Virus record (IMG/VR): IMGVR_UViG_3300048625_000070
Span: 1-44,770 of that record
Source: a virus
Reading direction: 5' to 3' (one strand)
Length of the DNA stretch: 44,770 nucleotides
Shown here: piece by piece, positions 26,137 through 33,383 of the stretch
How positions within the stretch are numbered: position 1 is the first letter of the stretch
Layout of the letters: every line of letters starts with the position of its first letter
The notes under the pieces: model-generated
Database searches by the model: none
Told to the model about the DNA's origin: nothing
What the model saw: only the letters and a program-made list of their open reading frames with translations
Made by a program: the position numbers and the translations under genes

Positions 26137-27315
26137 ATGCCAAACATTACAGCACCTTCACTCACACTAAGAGCGAACAAAGGTAGCCCTCTTACGAACG
26201 CAGAAGTAGATGCTAACTTCACCAATATTAGTAATGCGTTACAAACTGGTCTAACTGCAGCTTCTTATACAGCTGCTGACATTTTAGCTAAACTTCTCAC
26301 TGTTGATGGAACAGGATCTGGATTAGATGCTGATACAGTAGACGGTTATAATCAAGATACAGCTAACACTGTAAGCACTCTTGTTAGACGTGACGCATCA
26401 GGTAACTTTGCAGCTAACAACATCACAGCATCTACCTTTACTGGTACTTTCTCTGGTGTAGCTGCCATTACTAGTGGTACAATCACACTTACCACTGCGT
26501 TAGCTCTTGGTTCTGGTGGTACTGGTTCAACTACAGCTGCTGGCGCTAGAACTGCTTTAGGTCTGGTAATCGGCACTGACGTTCAGGCGTATGATGGAGA
26601 GTTGGCTGCTCTTGCGGGTCTAACATCCGCTGCAGATAAAGTTCCATACTTTACTGGCGCTGGAACTGCTTCTACATTTACATCATCTTCTTATACAAGA
26701 GGATTGCTGGGCTCAGCTGACGCTGCTACAGCTAGAACTACACTCGGGTTGGCACTAGGTACAGACGTACAAGCGTATAACTCTAACCTTACAGCTATCT
26801 CTGCTATCACTGGACCTACTGTCAAGGGTATCTACGTTAGAACTGGCGACGGTAGCGCAACTACAAGAACAATCACTGGCACTGCTAGTCGTGTTGTCGT
26901 TACAAACGGTGACGGTAGCGCTGGTAACTTCGGATTAGACTTAGGCGCAGACGTACCTTCTCTAGCTGGAAATAACACTTTCGCTGGAACTACAAACACT
27001 TTCGCTGCTGTCGTTGCTTCTACATTCACTCAGTCTTCTGACGTTAGTTTGAAAGAAAACATCCAGACCCTAAATAATGCATTAGGGATCGTTAATAACC
27101 TTAGAGGCGTTTCTTACACAAGAGATGGACAAGAAGAAATTGGTGTAATCGCCCAAGAAACAGAAGTCTTCTTACCTCAGGTAGTACGCACTGGTGAAGA
27201 TGGCTTAAAATCTGTTTCTTATACTAACATGGTCGGGTTGTTGATAGAAGCTATCAAAGAACAACAAAGAATTATTGACGATTTGACTGGTCGTCTAATT
27301 AAACTGGAGAAATAA
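26137..27315 (+). CDS. Tail fibre with C-terminal S74 self-cleaving chaperone
   Basis: 392 residues. The start PNITAPSLTLRANKGSPLTN and EVDANFTNI is a common phage-fibre N-terminus. The middle is Thr/Ala/Gly-rich with the fibre-type GSGGTGSTTAAGARTALGL unit repeated in variant form. At about residue 302 the S74 intramolecular chaperone begins (SSDVSLKENI, with Ser and Lys spaced as in the catalytic dyad), followed by GVIAQETEVFLPQVV and a trimer-forming terminal helix. After folding the last 90 or so residues are expected to cut themselves off. The AAAGGA ribosome-binding site is good. It directly precedes the Cys-rich peptide gene, two bases apart. Confidence 0.87.
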   Translation: MPNITAPSLTLRANKGSPLTNAEVDANFTNISNALQTGLTAASYTAADILAKLLTVDGTGSGLDADTVDGYNQDTANTVSTLVRRDASGNFAANNITASTFTGTFSGVAAITSGTITLTTALALGSGGTGSTTAAGARTALGLVIGTDVQAYDGELAALAGLTSAADKVPYFTGAGTASTFTSSSYTRGLLGSADAATARTTLGLALGTDVQAYNSNLTAISAITGPTVKGIYVRTGDGSATTRTITGTASRVVVTNGDGSAGNFGLDLGADVPSLAGNNTFAGTTNTFAAVVASTFTQSSDVSLKENIQTLNNALGIVNNLRGVSYTRDGQEEIGVIAQETEVFLPQVVRTGEDGLKSVSYTNMVGLLIEAIKEQQRIIDDLTGRLIKLEK

Positions 27316-27316
27316 A

Positions 27317-27670
27317 ATGGCTATTCACGGCGCAACAGGTTTTAGACGTTCTGACGGTACAGACGTTGTAAACTTATTTTGGAATTACTATGATGCAGGT
27401 AACAGAACTTATACAGAAGCCAACGGTAACTGTGCATGGAACTGTGCGTGTAACGGAGCTAACTGTAACTGCGGTAACTGCGATGCAGCCGACTTAGGTT
27501 TTGGAGCTGTAACAGACAGACGTATTAACGTATTCCACCAAAACGCGGTTTCTGAAAGTCTTAGACACGAAAACCAAGATAACACTATCGGTGGGTTCCA
27601 GTGGTATAGATCTAACTGTAACTGTAACTGTGCATGTAACTGTAACTGTAACTGTGCGTGTAACTGCTAA
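27317..27670 (+). CDS. Cys/Asn-rich protein; candidate substrate of the nearby radical SAM maturase
   Basis: 117 residues with 15 cysteines. Two clusters: C39, C43, C45, C50, C52, C55 (NCAWNCACNGANCNCGNC), and a C-terminal run of nine cysteines at every second position from 101 to 117 (NCNCNCACNCNCNCACNC). The residue between cysteines is Asn or Ala. The remainder has no Cys and includes aromatic/Gly motifs (NLFWNYYDAG, GGFQWYRS), so it is not a simple metallothionein. There is no signal peptide. A 386-codon gene separates it from a radical SAM/SPASM enzyme, the usual maturase type for Cys-rich peptides (sactipeptide or ranthipeptide thioethers). Alternatives are a metal-binding CxC protein or a disulfide-knotted fibre tip. 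The ribosome-binding site is GGAG; the gene is probably cotranscribed with the fibre before it. I do not recognise the family. Confidence 0.8.
   Translation: MAIHGATGFRRSDGTDVVNLFWNYYDAGNRTYTEANGNCAWNCACNGANCNCGNCDAADLGFGAVTDRRINVFHQNAVSESLRHENQDNTIGGFQWYRSNCNCNCACNCNCNCACNC
27614..27661 (+). repeat. Two 24-bp tandem repeats encoding NCNCNCAC
   Basis: Units at 27614-27637 and 27638-27661 differ at one base (GCA against GCG). Each is itself three AACTGT hexamers plus an Ala-Cys pair. A final AAC TGC follows, then the stop. The hexameric make-up allows Cys-number change by slippage without loss of frame. Confidence 0.93.
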
Positions 27671-27682
27671 TCGAGGATTGTA

Positions 27683-28843
27683 ATGCTAAAAATATTTAAA
27701 ACAGTAATTAGAGCGAACGAAGGTTCTGAACTTTATGAGAGAGATTCTAAGCATAGAGTTACGATGGGATATGACGATGAGACTAAAACTATTAAAGTTA
27801 GAGTTGATGAAGTTAGATCACCAAACCCCAACTTGGATGAATCACTACCAGAAAACACTCCTACTATTTTAAGAGATGTCCATACTACTGCTGACTTTGT
27901 TTTAGTTGTAGAGAGAGAGTTCACTGCAAGTGATTTCTTGATGAGAACAGATAATAACAAGTGGATCGTAGAGTATAACTCTGAAACTAAACAAATCAGC
28001 GACCCTATTGATGTTTATGAACTCTCTAAACAGTATGTTAATGGTAGCACATCCCACGAAAAAATTTATTTCAACTTAAATGAATATCGTTATCAGTCAA
28101 ATGATAAACTAACACCTCTTTTTGTAGTTGATAGTTTCTTCAAATCATTAGGTTTCGATGGTTCTACTCTACAGTTCTTTGTTGAAGACTTAGAAGTTGA
28201 TCTTTTAGATACTATTCTAGAAGTTCCAGCAGAACAAGTGACTGAAGCAACACCTAAACAATATGAGTTCTGGAACAACTATAATGTTAGAGTTGCGATA
28301 ACATTTGAAATTATAGACTCTGTTGGTAAAGTTGTCACTTCTGCTTTCCCAACACTGAAGCCTTCTGCTAAAGCTGCTAATTTTGTTACTTTAACTCAGA
28401 AGAATCCGTTTAATGTTACTAGCGGTGATGGAATCTCGATCGTTCCATTAACATCAGATATTAGTGGTAATCGTTTTTATGTTCAGCTTCCTGTACTGCC
28501 ACAGTCTGAAAATGGGCAATATGGAATTCGCATGATGTTTGGAAATAAAATTCACAATCTAGTAGACTCTCGTCCATATGCAACGTTCGACATAGAATGT
28601 GTGAACGGTATTGTTTCTAAAAATAGAGTGACTAATGAATATGATCCATCTGCACCGAATGCATATGTAACTGAGTTTATCGAAAATCACAACCATCCAG
28701 CTGATAAAATAGCATTGGCATTTGCTGGTGTTGAAGGTTTAGTTGTACAAACACTTGGCTATAAAGCTGGCGATTTCTTTAAATTGAAACTTAATGTAGG
28801 TGAATTCCTTTCTTATGCTGAACTCTGGGTTGAAATTGTCTAA
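27683..28843 (+). CDS. Unknown protein between the Cys-rich peptide and the radical SAM gene
   Basis: 386 residues; family not recognised. Composition is acidic and beta-rich with no signal peptide or membrane segment and a single Cys. The N-terminal part (about 1-110) has short alternating strands (HRVTMGYDDETKTIKVRVDE), the middle is more helical, and the C-terminal part (about 190-386) looks like two beta-sandwich units with an RPYATFDIECVNG stretch. A GAGG ribosome-binding site lies eight bases from the ATG, 12 bases after the peptide gene. It may be a virion protein, or a carrier/partner for the Cys-rich protein; location alone suggests the link. Confidence 0.75.
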   Translation: MLKIFKTVIRANEGSELYERDSKHRVTMGYDDETKTIKVRVDEVRSPNPNLDESLPENTPTILRDVHTTADFVLVVEREFTASDFLMRTDNNKWIVEYNSETKQISDPIDVYELSKQYVNGSTSHEKIYFNLNEYRYQSNDKLTPLFVVDSFFKSLGFDGSTLQFFVEDLEVDLLDTILEVPAEQVTEATPKQYEFWNNYNVRVAITFEIIDSVGKVVTSAFPTLKPSAKAANFVTLTQKNPFNVTSGDGISIVPLTSDISGNRFYVQLPVLPQSENGQYGIRMMFGNKIHNLVDSRPYATFDIECVNGIVSKNRVTNEYDPSAPNAYVTEFIENHNHPADKIALAFAGVEGLVVQTLGYKAGDFFKLKLNVGEFLSYAELWVEIV

Positions 28844-28850
28844 CCTAAAT
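28843..28850 (+). promoter_or_regulatory. Late-promoter-like CCTAAATA before the radical SAM gene
   Basis: CCTAAATA right after the preceding stop, 32 bases upstream of the ATG at 28883, which has AAGGA as ribosome-binding site. Spacing matches the stronger late promoters here, so the maturase may have its own late transcript. Confidence 0.45.
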
Positions 28851-28882
28851 ACATGATCTGTTCTACATTATAAGGATTTTTA

Positions 28883-30346
28883 ATGAGTAAATTTACACTA
28901 GTCCTGCAAGGGGCTAATGACGTGAAGGTGAATATGGTTTATGATCCAATGACATCTGAGATGTATTGGGAACACAATCATGAAAGACCCTCTCTCGATC
29001 ATATCGGAAGAGGGATTCAGTATCAAATGGATGCTAAGGTGTGGGAACCTGCAAATATTACGAACCCGCACGATCCAGCATTGCATGGTAAGAAATCAAG
29101 AAAACCAACTACACTTAAGATCACGATGGGTCTTAAGTGTAACTACGCTTGTTCATATTGTAATCAAGCGCATCAACCACACGATCCAGTTGGCGGTCCA
29201 GACGATGCTGAAGATCTGATCGAGAAGATGAAAAAGAATTTTGAATTCGGAACTTACGATAAGTTTCGTTTAGAATTCTGGGGTGGTGAACCAATGGTGT
29301 ATTGGAAAACACTGAAACCATTGGCAGAAAAAGTTAAAAAAGTATACCCGAACGCCATGTTTATGATGGTGACCAATGGTTCTCTTTTGACAAGAGAAAA
29401 GATTGACTGGTTCAATAAAATGGGCTTTTCTATCGGTATGTCTCACGATGGTCCATTACACGCACAGAATCGTGGTCCAGATCCACTAGATGAAGGTCCA
29501 GCTAAAGATGCAGTTGTATATGCACTTAAGACTATGGGAACTAATAGATTCACATTCAACTGTGTGTTGACTAGAGAAAACGTTTCCATTGCAGCAGTTA
29601 GAGATTTTATTCTAACTAAGTTAAACAAACATATCACTGGCTATGAGAATCCTGGTGTTGACCAGAGAGATATCCAAGTTACTACAGAAGAGTTGATGCT
29701 GCCATATGATGATTCTGGTATGAAGCATTCTCTGCAGACTACTGATGAGAAGAAAGAAATTCTTCATAATCTGTTCGAAGAAACGATTGACAATAAAAAT
29801 CAGTTTAGCTGGACAGTGTATCAGAAGGTTAAGTCATTCTATGAGTCTATTATGTACGGTCGTCCAGCCGAAGCACTTGGCCAAAAGTGTGGTATGGACA
29901 GCGAAGACAATATCGCGATTGACATGAAGGGTAATGTGACTACATGTCAGAACACTTCTTCTTTGACCAAGCATAATATTGGTAACATTGAAGATATGGA
30001 TAATGTTAGATTAACTAATTCATATCACTGGTCTACTCGTAAAGAATGCCCTTCTTGTCCTGTTGTCCAGCTTTGCCAAGGTGCTTGTCTATTCTTGGAA
30101 GATGAATATTGGGAACAGGCTTGTGAGAACTTATTCTGGTATAACCTAGCTATGCTTAGCGCTGGTTTGTTTAAGATGACTGACGGATTAGTGTTAACTG
30201 AGATCAAAGGTGAACGAATCAGATTCGATGGAGTTACTAGCATCCCAGTTATTGATGCCGAGTATATGAAAACTGGTGTGAAGTCTTGGAAGGTTAGAAA
30301 GCCTATCAATATTCCAATCGTGCAAGTTCCAGTAGAACCTAGATAA
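28883..30346 (+). CDS. Radical SAM / SPASM peptide maturase
   Basis: 487 residues. The radical SAM CX3CX2C motif is C86-C90-C93 (LKCNYACSYC), the GGEP SAM-binding motif is at 134-137, and an MVTNGSLLT strand follows. The SPASM domain is complete: C336-X13-G-X4-C355, then C389-X2-C392-X5-C398-X3-C402 and C414, the seven ligands for two auxiliary 4Fe-4S clusters. The layout is that of anSME-like and thioether-forming peptide maturases, which modify Cys, Ser or backbone carbons using a 5'-deoxyadenosyl radical in the cytoplasm. The natural candidate substrate is the 15-Cys protein encoded at 27317. All visible catalytic ligands are intact, so it should be active. A C-terminal extension of about 70 residues follows the SPASM domain. 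Codon use looks like that of its neighbours; recent transfer is not evident. Confidence 0.92.
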   Translation: MSKFTLVLQGANDVKVNMVYDPMTSEMYWEHNHERPSLDHIGRGIQYQMDAKVWEPANITNPHDPALHGKKSRKPTTLKITMGLKCNYACSYCNQAHQPHDPVGGPDDAEDLIEKMKKNFEFGTYDKFRLEFWGGEPMVYWKTLKPLAEKVKKVYPNAMFMMVTNGSLLTREKIDWFNKMGFSIGMSHDGPLHAQNRGPDPLDEGPAKDAVVYALKTMGTNRFTFNCVLTRENVSIAAVRDFILTKLNKHITGYENPGVDQRDIQVTTEELMLPYDDSGMKHSLQTTDEKKEILHNLFEETIDNKNQFSWTVYQKVKSFYESIMYGRPAEALGQKCGMDSEDNIAIDMKGNVTTCQNTSSLTKHNIGNIEDMDNVRLTNSYHWSTRKECPSCPVVQLCQGACLFLEDEYWEQACENLFWYNLAMLSAGLFKMTDGLVLTEIKGERIRFDGVTSIPVIDAEYMKTGVKSWKVRKPINIPIVQVPVEPR

Positions 30347-30347
30347 G

Positions 30348-30674
30348 ATGGAACCCTTTCTAAATTGTTACATTTGGGACGTGAACCGTTATCCTCGTTA
30401 TGGTGCAATAAGTTCTAACCTAAATAAGAGGACGCTATCCGACATTGTCTGGCACAATTCTTCAGAAAATAGCTTCCAAAATAATAACGTTAGCATACAA
30501 ATACCAGACTTTTTGATCAATGCAACGCAGGAGCAAAAAGATTTTGTTTATAAATATAAAGAACGAATCATAAGATTGAAGCTCCCGATTCTTTACGTAG
30601 ATGTAAAGGGTCATGAGGAAGTCTGGGGTTTAGATCTTAGGTGTGCAGAACATCTTAAGTTTTTAAGAAAATAA
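30348..30674 (+). CDS. Small unknown protein after the radical SAM gene
   Basis: 108 residues, starting one base after the radical SAM stop, without a clear ribosome-binding site, so probably translated by coupling. The family is not recognised. The N-terminal part (NRYPRYGAISSNLNKRTLSD) is faintly like the loop after the last cysteines of SPASM domains, but it lacks the cysteines (only C7 and C99). The middle is Asn/Ser-rich and the C-terminal part (YKYKERIIRLKLPILYVDVK) forms a basic helix and strand. A peptide-recognition or maturase-accessory role is possible but unproven. Two late-promoter-like strings lie inside the gene (30419-30426, 30549-30556). Confidence 0.6.
   Translation: MEPFLNCYIWDVNRYPRYGAISSNLNKRTLSDIVWHNSSENSFQNNNVSIQIPDFLINATQEQKDFVYKYKERIIRLKLPILYVDVKGHEEVWGLDLRCAEHLKFLRK
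30549..30556 (+). promoter_or_regulatory. Consensus late promoter TATAAATA inside the 108-codon gene
   Basis: An exact TATAAATA lying 130 bases before the DctP-like gene. It could give that gene its own late transcript, with the upstream codons acting as leader. It may also be chance in an AT-rich stretch encoding YKYK. Confidence 0.4.
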
Positions 30675-30686
30675 GGAGATTCCAAA

Positions 30687-31634
30687 ATGGAAAAGAAACA
30701 CGTTAAATGGGTTATCGCCCATGAGCCAATCGGTCTATTTTTAAAGGTAGCCGAACACTTCGCTAAAGAAGTAAACGAAAAAACTGGTGGTAAGTTTGAT
30801 ATTGAAGTTCTTTCTCTATCAGAGTACACTACAAAGTATAATGATGGTAAGAAAGTCTCTAAGAACGATCTAATGAACTTGATCGACACTGGTGCTATCG
30901 AAATGAGCCACATCTATACTACTTGGCTTGCTGACTACAACAAAGACCTACATGCGTTAGATCTACCATTCTTGTTTCAAGACCACGCTCATGCAGACCG
31001 TGTATTGGAAGGTCAAATCGGTACTGACTTGTTGGCTGGCGTTTCTAAGAACTCCAACATCCACGCTATGTCTTTCACTTATTCTGGTGGTTACCGTGTT
31101 GTTCCAGCTAACTTCAAAGCTGACACTGTAGACGCATGGAAAGGTCAGACTGTTCGTACTAGCCGTTCTCCAGTAGCAGTTGAGACTTTCAAGTTGCTTG
31201 GCGCTGAACCAAAAGAGCACATTGCTCTAGAAGAAATGAATGCATTCGCTGATCGCGGTGAAATCACTGCTGGTGAATCTACTTACGTTCGTATCTTCCC
31301 ATTGGATCAACATAAGTCATTCAAAGTTGTTAATGATACAGCACATAGCTTGTTCTTGACTTCTATCATCGTCAACCAAGACTTCATGAAGCAATTCGAC
31401 GAAGAAACTCAAGAAATCATGGCTACTGCTGCATTCAATGCTGCTCGTAAAGAACGTCGTGAATCTGTTGCTGATATTCCTAACATTCTAGCTGAATGCG
31501 AATCTCAAGGTGTTGAAGTTGTTCGTATGAATGCAACAGAACAACAAAAGTTCAAGGATGTTACTGCTTCTGTATACGAGAAGTTTGCTGACTACTTCAC
31601 TCCAGGTCTTGTACAAAAGATCCAGTTACAGTAA
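30687..31634 (+). CDS. TRAP transporter DctP-like substrate-binding protein without signal peptide
   Basis: 315 residues. The match to DctP-type TRAP binding proteins covers the whole length: HEPIGLFLKVAEHFAKEVNE (helix 1), LNALDLPFLF-type core (here LHALDLPFLFQ), WKGQTVRTSRSPVAVETFKL, which holds the Arg usually contacting the ligand carboxylate, and NQDFMKQFDEETQEIM. Cellular family members are secreted to the periplasm; this one begins directly at the mature-domain position, with no signal sequence, so it should stay in the cytoplasm or enter the virion. It has a strong AAGGAG ribosome-binding site and its own terminator. No TRAP membrane subunits are nearby. The ligand is unknown; its role in infection is not established. 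Confidence 0.88.
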   Translation: MEKKHVKWVIAHEPIGLFLKVAEHFAKEVNEKTGGKFDIEVLSLSEYTTKYNDGKKVSKNDLMNLIDTGAIEMSHIYTTWLADYNKDLHALDLPFLFQDHAHADRVLEGQIGTDLLAGVSKNSNIHAMSFTYSGGYRVVPANFKADTVDAWKGQTVRTSRSPVAVETFKLLGAEPKEHIALEEMNAFADRGEITAGESTYVRIFPLDQHKSFKVVNDTAHSLFLTSIIVNQDFMKQFDEETQEIMATAAFNAARKERRESVADIPNILAECESQGVEVVRMNATEQQKFKDVTASVYEKFADYFTPGLVQKIQLQ

Positions 31635-31644
31635 GTTTTGACTG

Positions 31645-31652
31645 TATAAATA
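31645..31652 (+). promoter_or_regulatory. Consensus late promoter TATAAATA, abutting a terminator
   Basis: Exact T4-type late promoter, ten bases after the DctP-like stop and 39 bases before the PP-loop gene ATG (31692, GAGGA ribosome-binding site). The predicted start site falls inside the left arm of the next hairpin. Confidence 0.7.
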
Positions 31653-31653
31653 C

Positions 31654-31675
31654 AAGGGAGCTTCGGCTCCCTTTT
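31654..31675 (+). terminator. Rho-independent terminator with TTCG loop
   Basis: An 8-bp stem (AAGGGAGC at 31654-31661 with GCTCCCTT at 31666-31673), a TTCG tetraloop known to be extra-stable, and a run of Ts to 31675. It ends the DctP-like transcript. Confidence 0.9.
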
Positions 31676-31691
31676 TCATTTTGAGGATATT

Positions 31692-32795
31692 ATGAAGCAA
31701 CTGCTATACTACAACATCGGTTTGATTAGATCTCTAGATCTCGTTAACAGCAAACAAGAACCAATAGAAGAGTTTCTTGCACCCAACGCACAAGAACTGT
31801 ATGCCTTCTTCGAGAAGCATAAAATGAACCTAAACGCAGTGTATGATAGAACAGGGCAAACTCCACACTTCTTGAATGTTAAACCTGGACTCTTGCAGAT
31901 TCCTAGCATAAACCAACCATTCAACAAGTCATTTAGAGAATGTGTAGAAGATCGTTGTAGAGAGTTAATTGCGTTAGATAAACCAATCACTGTAGTATGG
32001 AGTGGTGGTGTCGATAGCACGTTGGTGTTGTTCGCGCTTCTTAGAATGGTGAATGACCCATCACAAATCACAGTCTATGGAACTTATAGTTCTATCCTTG
32101 AGTCTGGTGCGCTGTTTGATACCAGAATTAGAAACTCTGGCGTTAAGTTTAAGTTCAAGGTATCATCAACTAGAGACTTCGATGACGGAGATCCAAATAG
32201 CATCTTTGTAACAGGATACTTCGGCAATCAGCTATTCGGACCAGTAGATGATTTCATAACTGGCACGATTAAGACTTCGGTGTCATTCTTCCATCACCAG
32301 TTTAATAACGATGATCCATTGATCGATTACACTAAGTGTATTGACGATGAACTTCACGAATTCCTGCTACCTTCTATTAAGGCTAGTCCGAAGAAAATCG
32401 AGACTCTTAGAGATTTGCGTTGGTGGTTGATTTTCAACTATGACTGGTATACAGCAGAGTATTCTAGCCGCATCGCTACTAAACAACAGGATAACCAATA
32501 CCACTTCTTTAACACTGATGATTTCCAGCGTTATGTTATGACAACAGACCAACCATTCACAAAAGATGTGGGGAAACCTCTAACACATCGTTGGGTGATG
32601 CGAGAGTTGATTGAAGATTATAGTGGAGATAGTTATTATGCTTGGAATAAACCAAAAGGGGTTTCCTCACTTGGAAACCCCCTTGCTTCTTGGTTGTTTT
32701 TGCTAGAAGACTTTTCAGTCTATCACGCAAAACAGAATACCTTACGTGATCATCAAGAAGTTTACTCTCACGTTAACCAACACATGGGTTTCTGA
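31692..32795 (+). CDS. PP-loop ATPase, asparagine-synthetase-like fold
   Basis: 367 residues. The SGGVDS PP-loop (104-109, in VVWSGGVDSTLVLFALL) binds ATP and marks an adenylating enzyme of the asparagine synthetase / N-type ATP pyrophosphatase group. There is no N-terminal glutaminase domain; the first 95 residues are of unknown type. The C-terminal half has conserved-looking Trp, Tyr and Asp (LRDLRWWLIFNYDWYT) but no family-defining motif I recognise. Enzymes of this fold form amides, e.g. in lasso peptide closure, or modify tRNA or nucleobases. Its place beside a peptide maturase makes peptide amidation a reasonable guess, not more. The last 54 bases overlap the tail of the convergent 2OG-like gene. 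Confidence 0.82.
   Translation: MKQLLYYNIGLIRSLDLVNSKQEPIEEFLAPNAQELYAFFEKHKMNLNAVYDRTGQTPHFLNVKPGLLQIPSINQPFNKSFRECVEDRCRELIALDKPITVVWSGGVDSTLVLFALLRMVNDPSQITVYGTYSSILESGALFDTRIRNSGVKFKFKVSSTRDFDDGDPNSIFVTGYFGNQLFGPVDDFITGTIKTSVSFFHHQFNNDDPLIDYTKCIDDELHEFLLPSIKASPKKIETLRDLRWWLIFNYDWYTAEYSSRIATKQQDNQYHFFNTDDFQRYVMTTDQPFTKDVGKPLTHRWVMRELIEDYSGDSYYAWNKPKGVSSLGNPLASWLFLLEDFSVYHAKQNTLRDHQEVYSHVNQHMGF
32656..32684 (-). terminator. Terminator for the minus-strand gene, placed inside the PP-loop coding region
   Basis: A GC-rich 9-bp perfect stem (GGGGTTTCC at 32658-32666 with GGAAACCCC at 32673-32681), a 6-base loop, and on the minus strand a following TTTT. It lies about 60 bases after the minus-strand stop. 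On the plus strand it encodes PKGVSSLGNP and has no clean T run. Confidence 0.62.
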
Positions 32796-33383
32796 TTCTA
32801 GGTTAGTCTCGACATAACGCTGAGCATAACCTGGAGTTACGTAGATTTCACCAAGTCTGCTCTTCATTCCAAAGTAAGTCCCGACTAAATTCTGAGAAGC
32901 CATCTTACGAATTGCCTGAACTCCACCACGTGGATCTGGGAAATAAGTCGTTGGTGTATCTGGTCCACAGTTAGCGACGAATGAGAACACTAAAGTAGAA
33001 AATTCGTAGTTATGTGGTGGGATGTGTTCGCCACGTTGTTGGAACAAAGTGTTTGAACCGACAATTACTGGTGTGCGACCACTATCATCCTTAGAAAGTT
33101 GGATACTTTCACAAATTTCATAGATGACTTCTTTTAGTCGGTTTACGGCTGGATGATCCAATTCCATAATATCCTTGCCGATGTCTTCTTCTGCTACCTC
33201 AAATCCATTAGATAGGTTGATCAAAGATGGGGCAACTTGTTCCCAATCTGTGAATTTGTAACTTGCAAATAATGTTGGGAATAGGTGTTGTTGGAATGTT
33301 TCTTCTACTGGTGAGTAGTCGAAATTGTATTCTTCTTTAGGGGCATCACCGATCACTGGTGCAGGTACTTTTTGCTCTTCCAT
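32742..33383 (-). CDS. 2OG-Fe(II)-oxygenase-like protein, possibly non-catalytic
   Basis: 213 residues. The block TLFQQRGEHIPPHNYEFSTL, then TTYFPDPRGG, then GEIYVTPGYAQRYVETN and a final VNVRVNFLM matches in order the double-stranded beta-helix of phage 2OG-Fe(II) oxygenases (HPPHxH, DPR and FPSWxxHxVxPN segments). Two expected ligand positions appear changed: the second His of the first motif is Tyr, and the distal His aligns with Gln/Arg. It may therefore bind but not oxidise a substrate, or use other residues. Such proteins are frequent next to fibre genes in marine T4-like phages. GGAGAT ribosome-binding site; two tandem late promoters upstream. Tail-to-tail overlap with the PP-loop gene. 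Confidence 0.68.
   Translation of the reverse strand: MEEQKVPAPVIGDAPKEEYNFDYSPVEETFQQHLFPTLFASYKFTDWEQVAPSLINLSNGFEVAEEDIGKDIMELDHPAVNRLKEVIYEICESIQLSKDDSGRTPVIVGSNTLFQQRGEHIPPHNYEFSTLVFSFVANCGPDTPTTYFPDPRGGVQAIRKMASQNLVGTYFGMKSRLGEIYVTPGYAQRYVETNLESETHVLVNVRVNFLMIT

Follow-up and report, generated by a model that had tools for sequence, protein, structure and literature searches.

A radical SAM/SPASM enzyme family linked to Asn-Cys-tailed fiber proteins of phages: a probable fiber-tip maturation system

We analyzed a 44,770-nt stretch of viral DNA (positions 1 to 44,770 of IMG/VR record IMGVR_UViG_3300048625_000070; hereafter, the window), which holds the baseplate, tail-fiber, and tail region of a T4-like myovirus, with PHROG matches to baseplate wedge, hub lysozyme, tail-fiber, and sheath-stabilizer proteins. 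Within its tail-fiber cluster lies a gene cassette that encodes a Cys-rich protein and a radical S-adenosylmethionine (rSAM) enzyme with a SPASM domain. The gene order is S74 tail fiber, 117-residue open reading frame (ORF), 386-residue ORF (orf386), rSAM/SPASM enzyme, 108-residue ORF, DctP-like gene, and a hairpin (Table 1). An earlier reading of this DNA, which we call the original prediction, had proposed that the Cys-rich protein and the enzyme form a modification pair whose product is a virion component. Its account of the gene arrangement is correct: the Cys-rich protein lies directly behind the S74 fiber, with 1 nt between the fiber stop and its own start, and only orf386 separates it from the enzyme.

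Table 1. Features of the tail-fiber locus in the window.
Feature	Position	Strand	Evidence or remark
S74 tail-fiber protein (endosialidase-type chaperone domain)	26137..27315	+	Peptidase_S74 PF13884, E=7.8e-11; several PHROG tail-fiber families
Asn-Cys-tailed protein, presumed rSAM substrate, 117 residues, 15 Cys	27317..27670	+	Relatives in 24 IMG/VR loci
C-terminal alternating tail NCNCNCACNCNCNCACNC, residues 100-117	27614..27667	+	Sequence
Partner protein orf386, 386 residues	27683..28843	+	Iterative profile search; AlphaFold model
Radical SAM/SPASM enzyme, 487 residues, presumed Asn-Cys tail maturase, PHROG 1802	28883..30346	+	PF04055, phrog_1802, TIGR04085
108-residue protein	30348..30674	+	Adjoins enzyme in relatives; conserved behind enzyme in T4-like group
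Terminator-like hairpin	31654..31673		3' of DctP gene

As had been noted, the small protein contains 15 Cys residues, the last nine of which alternate with other residues to form the C-terminal tail; 12 of the 15 are preceded by Asn and three by Ala. Searches with Pfam, PHROG, and NCBIfam profiles gave no family match for this protein, including none to a PHROG tail fiber, and tblastn against GenBank phages returned no relatives either of it or of the one partner protein tried. Because relatives occur in 24 IMG/VR loci, the close ones with a conserved tail, the ORF is not a chance reading frame. The nine tail Cys columns are invariant across 19 relatives, and 22 closer loci keep the order S74 fiber, Cys protein, orf386, and enzyme wherever the locus is long enough.

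The enzyme carries every motif that the original prediction had assigned to it. The rSAM motif CX3CX2C corresponds to C86/C90/C93, the GGEP motif lies within WGGEP (residues 133-137), and the seven SPASM Cys residues (C336, C355, C389, C392, C398, C402, and C414) fit the pattern CX13GX4C...CX2CX5CX3C...C. Across 126 distinct relatives, which contain an invariant WGGEP, all ten cluster Cys residues are at least 98% conserved, while the next best column reaches 37% Cys. The enzyme matches PF04055 (E=3.3e-10, above the cut-off), phrog_1802 (E=1.5e-64), and the SPASM model TIGR04085 (36.8 bits; cut-off, 27); the Pfam SPASM model PF13186 falls below its cut-off. Its nearest curated models are those of peptide and protein maturases (PapB, DynA, and CcpM), with PapB the closest in NCBIfam (NF047865; E=1.6e-22, 80.2 bits against a cut-off of 340). 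PapB is a thioether-forming maturase. The best PDB profile matches are 8vpo, 5wgg (CteB, second-ranked), and 4k37 (anSME). With seven SPASM Cys residues, auxiliary cluster I could have an open site. The corresponding site of CteB binds a substrate Cys, though one from the leader sequence (PMC6231123). At 60% identity, the enzymes of the family group into 26 clusters.

The enzyme family and the Asn-Cys tail are genetically linked in both directions. In a forward scan, we searched IMG/VR for DNA encoding NCNC[NTDA]CNC, which yielded at least 120 stretches; all counts that follow are among the matches listed. Of these 120, 98 are tail loci, 8 are internal or other, and 14 lack such an ORF. With family membership set at >150 bits, the enzyme is present in the locus in 68 of the 98 tail loci, and 10 of the remaining 30 hold it elsewhere in the record, so that tail and enzyme share a record in 78 of 98. 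Weaker SPASM-type enzymes accompany 11 tail loci (L116, L125, L129, and eight with several rSAM matches each). The last nine have no enzyme match in the whole record, but their contigs extend only 0.2 to 2.5 kb past the tail, ending before or close to the expected enzyme start, and none can therefore be evaluated as a counterexample. The internal class includes L050, which has an enzyme as well (250 bits), and three loci with no enzyme match in their records (L074, L087, and L140), which look like non-fiber proteins or chance frames. The original prediction had named Cys-tail homologs that regularly lack the SPASM gene as the observation that would speak against it; wherever the contig was long enough, we found none.

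The reverse search, with the enzyme alignment, retrieved at least 564 IMG/VR relatives, from which the best 78 loci were used; these are the top-scoring ones and do not sample the family at random. Of the 52 among them whose upstream sequence spans at least 4 kb, 51 have an upstream tail ORF, and strict tails lie on the enzyme strand in 54 cases and on the opposite strand in none. The single exception, L300, has truncated helicase and oxygenase genes beside the enzyme at a junction and looks like a chimeric or rearranged contig. A pattern scan of bacterial genomes returned mostly hexanucleotide-repeat noise and few real tails, and was not used as a rate. Enzyme plus tail nonetheless occur in six bacterial-genome loci, which are probably prophages (L356, L357, L358, L362, L363, and L364; five with the partner and four with an oxygenase); L357, L363, and L364 were reached via tail matches, so only the other three are independent of the tail search.

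The tail is also found on recognizable fibers. The enzymes of Achromobacter phages JWF and 2-1 share 33% identity with that of the window, and in these phages the tail-fiber protein itself bears an Asn-Cys run where a Hint domain begins (NCNCDCNCNCSC in JWF; PF05203, E=3e-12 in JWF). If the Hint domain cleaved itself off at the last Cys, the Asn-Cys tail would become the new C-terminus. The JWF relative Lumi provides a natural control: it gave no rSAM match, and its tail region contains no Asn-Cys tail. A tail followed by Hint-like sequence recurs in L282, L284, L289, and L159/L363, of which L284 gave weak Hint matches and L282 no match in the Pfam scan. Elsewhere, the tail ends collagen-type fibers (PF01391; L055 and L088), other PHROG tail fibers (L034 and L094), or each of two to three consecutive short ORFs of 92-109 residues (L095, L098, L127, and L137). 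Among 104 distinct tail proteins, with N-terminal parts from 8 families, the tail lies within 7 residues of the C-terminus in 98. The tail position is thus C-terminal or just before Hint. From the homology of the tail bearers to PHROG tail fibers and collagen-type proteins, the substrate is predicted to be a tail-fiber or tail-tip component, and the fusion of the same tail to such fibers supports the earlier preference for a virion component rather than a secreted peptide.

The residue before Cys is strongly biased. Cys is preceded by Asn in 73.5% of cases in the 104 tail proteins, and in 79% ahead of the alternating run, compared with 5.3% in the rSAM enzymes, the fairer comparison, and 4.6% in other large ORFs of the tail loci, which had been chosen to contain at most two Asn-Cys; an earlier, unrestricted control gave 11.6%, probably since some neighbors are tail-like. 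As Asn is enriched before Cys while the +1 position is less specific, Asn-Cys is the probable unit of modification, with Ala or Asp also accepted in place of Asn.

Nine loci (L045, L052, L071, L079, L096, L101, L121, L144, and L152) share a layout in which a conserved domain that begins with SKI(I/V)C comes after the Asn-Cys tail, with the enzyme gene located upstream. Four phage loci (L039, L060, L091, and L119) encode a Cys-rich protein with CQTCQGCQ-type repeats that ends in NCNCDCNC, and each of these records has two or more SPASM-like rSAM matches; this class is a cousin more like the ribosomally synthesized and post-translationally modified peptides (RiPPs). In L046, L053, L105, L125, and L150, proteins of 67-79 residues carry HTHxFYDDY ahead of a NCNCNCNC tail, and each of these records gives several weak rSAM matches.

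While the pairing of tail protein and enzyme holds, the original prediction of a two-gene system omitted a conserved third part. A partner of the orf386 family lies beside the enzyme in 24 of the 26 rSAM clusters, as found with iterative profiles whose weakest members are less certain. The AlphaFold model of orf386 (predicted local distance difference test [pLDDT] score, 83.7) has no PDB match at E<=1e-3, and a structure search in BFVD returned seven uncharacterized phage proteins. A 2-oxoglutarate (2OG)-Fe(II) oxygenase-like gene lies within 6 kb of the enzyme in 15 of the 26 clusters, with PF13759 matches of mixed strength, and some loci carry a second, shorter rSAM gene. The 2OG-like gene of the window (32742-33383, - strand) was considered as part of the system and rejected, as it falls outside the family of oxygenases that adjoin the enzyme in other phages. 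In six loci (L042, L062, L294, L305, L306, and L311), a conserved 69-residue protein, possibly a small partner, is encoded immediately 5' of the enzyme; the one tried had no family match.

Together, these data make it very likely that the enzyme-tail pairing reflects real enzyme-substrate biology, and, because the tail is the main feature common to the enzyme's unrelated neighbors, we strongly infer that the enzyme modifies it. The class of the enzyme makes cross-linking the likeliest chemistry, and the homology of the tail bearers to fibers makes the virion tip the likeliest location. We therefore think it reasonably probable that the locus encodes a fiber-tip maturation system, in which a dedicated maturase modifies, and probably thioether-cross-links, Asn-Cys fiber tails. 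We would give about an even chance to the more extended model in which phages of many lineages use a radical system to cross-link such tails into a covalently stitched adhesive or penetrating tip, sometimes exposed by Hint cleavage, with the partner and often an oxygenase involved.

The core of such a system would be a tail-fiber or tail-tip protein with an Asn-Cys repeat (here, the separate 117-residue protein), the orf386 partner, and the dedicated rSAM/SPASM enzyme. A 5'-deoxyadenosyl radical would abstract hydrogen from the residue before Cys, mostly Asn and sometimes Ala or Asp, while the Cys thiolate would be held at the open site of auxiliary cluster I, with seven SPASM Cys residues as in CteB. 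A thioether would then form from the Cys sulfur to the preceding, or another nearby, residue, with a loss of 2 Da each; sactisynthases accept Asn and Ala (PMC8188230). Repeated cross-links might yield a stiff tip, stable to reduction and proteases, that serves adhesion or penetration of the envelope; the partner might present or cap the tail.

Several points weigh against this model. It rests on sequence evidence, and the metagenome loci behind the linkage counts are partly redundant. The linkage could instead reflect a mobile fiber cassette rather than enzyme-substrate action. No Asn-Cys tail lies near the bacterial enzyme relatives L355:8968-10329, L359:6259-7659, L360, and L361; the chromosomal enzymes of L355 and L359 nest inside the phage tree and may be captured or decayed copies, while those of L360 and L361 are more distant. 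The enzyme reaches none of the NCBIfam equivalog cut-offs, with scores far below them, and the AlphaFold model of the Cys protein is not usable (pLDDT, 40.6). In addition, the second rSAM and oxygenase-like genes of some loci leave the division of labor among the enzymes ambiguous.

Other functions of tail and enzyme are conceivable. The Cys tail might bind metal or Fe-S clusters in a trimeric fiber, with the rSAM gene traveling alongside without modifying it. Alternating ligands would suit stacking on a threefold axis, and the HxH iron sites of T4 gp37 and marine phage fibers offer a precedent (PMC11705849), but metal binding explains neither why unrelated tailed fibers nearly always adjoin one enzyme family nor why Asn is so strongly favored ahead of Cys, and we regard it as unlikely. 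We consider it quite unlikely that the enzyme instead epimerizes alternate tail residues from L to D, in the manner of the PoyD-type proteusin epimerases, to give a D/L chain folding as a beta-helix or pore-like needle. Such a role would fit the strict i, i+2 alternation of the tails and the distant profile match of the enzyme to YydG/EpeE (8ai3, E=2.5e-7). However, conservation among the 126 enzymes is confined to the ten cluster Cys residues, with no extra conserved Cys to serve as hydrogen-atom donor; Asn precedes Cys outside the alternating run as well; and the complete SPASM domain, like the closest curated models, points to bond-forming enzymes.

The resemblance of a small Cys-rich ORF and a SPASM enzyme to a RiPP pair could also point to a secreted or intracellular peptide directed against competitors or the host and unrelated to the virion. 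This is very improbable, as the genes are located inside the tail-fiber cluster and the Asn-Cys tail terminates a large tail fiber in most phages. The original prediction had called the system RiPP-like while arguing from the lack of a protease or exporter gene against a secreted product; we found neither to be recurrent among the neighbors of enzyme and tail, and the enzyme-substrate pairing stands, whereas the substrates are structural proteins of about 83 to over 700 residues without a visible leader and in this respect not RiPP-like. Viral SPASM genes are often annotated as ahbD, and a Baltic survey lists 261 such viral calls, describing their function as speculative (PMC9301287). An auxiliary metabolic gene, such as an AhbD-type heme synthase, placed by chance in the fiber island is nevertheless hardly credible: the tail linkage spans 26 sequence clusters, heme-pathway genes were not seen among the recurrent neighbors, and the curated matches are to peptide and protein maturases.

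The proposed tail maturase can be compared with known systems. Ranthipeptide and sactipeptide maturases (PapB, CteB/SCIFF, AlbA, and RumMC) likewise combine an rSAM domain with a seven-Cys SPASM domain and act on a Cys-rich ribosomal protein, as the phage enzyme presumably does, but the presumed phage substrates are structural, lack leader, protease, and exporter, and carry C-terminal Asn-Cys repeats. QhpD (quinohemoprotein amine dehydrogenase) and anSME (sulfatases), families that both match the enzyme, are likewise dedicated to the maturation of a protein rather than a small peptide. They act on enzymes, at internal sites, unlike the phage system, whose target would be a terminal repeat of viral fibers. 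HxH iron-binding fibers of the T4 gp37 type also have alternating ligand residues (PMC11705849), but these are His, with no dedicated radical enzyme, where the system in the window has Cys and an rSAM enzyme. In pelagimyophages, which are T4-like marine phages, rSAM cassettes are variable parts of the tail-fiber island or host-recognition cluster; the passages we draw on give no substrate, Cys tail, or function for them (PMC7029224), and those of the Baltic survey give no link between ahbD calls and Asn-Cys tails (PMC9301287). The window enzyme belongs to PHROG 1802 ("radical SAM domain-containing protein"), which includes JWF gp030 and carries no assigned role; the tie to Asn-Cys fiber tails is new here. 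We found no prior description of the pairing in the open-access literature and, as far as that search reaches, the maturation of virion fibers by rSAM chemistry would be an undescribed kind of system built on a known enzyme class.

If the proposed maturation is real, viruses finish a structural part of the virion with radical SAM chemistry, a role for which we found no report in the open-access literature. PHROG 1802 would gain a function, as perhaps would some viral "auxiliary metabolic genes" listed as heme synthase, and SPASM enzymes would gain a class of large, C-terminally modified substrates. A hardened fiber tip would be relevant to phage adsorption, and the isolated phages JWF and 2-1 make the system directly accessible to testing.

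Downstream of the enzyme, the 108-residue protein accompanies only 4 of the 26 rSAM clusters, and its membership in the system is uncertain. The late promoters that had been predicted around the locus are present in part: T4-type TATAAATA copies occur on the + strand at 30549, 31645, and 33461, but none lies just upstream of the cassette. Directly 3' of the cassette is a gene for a DctP-type tripartite ATP-independent periplasmic (TRAP) solute-binding protein (30687-31634, + strand), which is 75-91% identical in related phages and in which a signal peptide is not obvious by eye. The TATAAATA motif at 31645 precedes a gene for a PP-loop protein (31692-32795, + strand) with an SGGVDSTL motif and weak similarity to asparagine synthase, which is syntenic in T4-like relatives.

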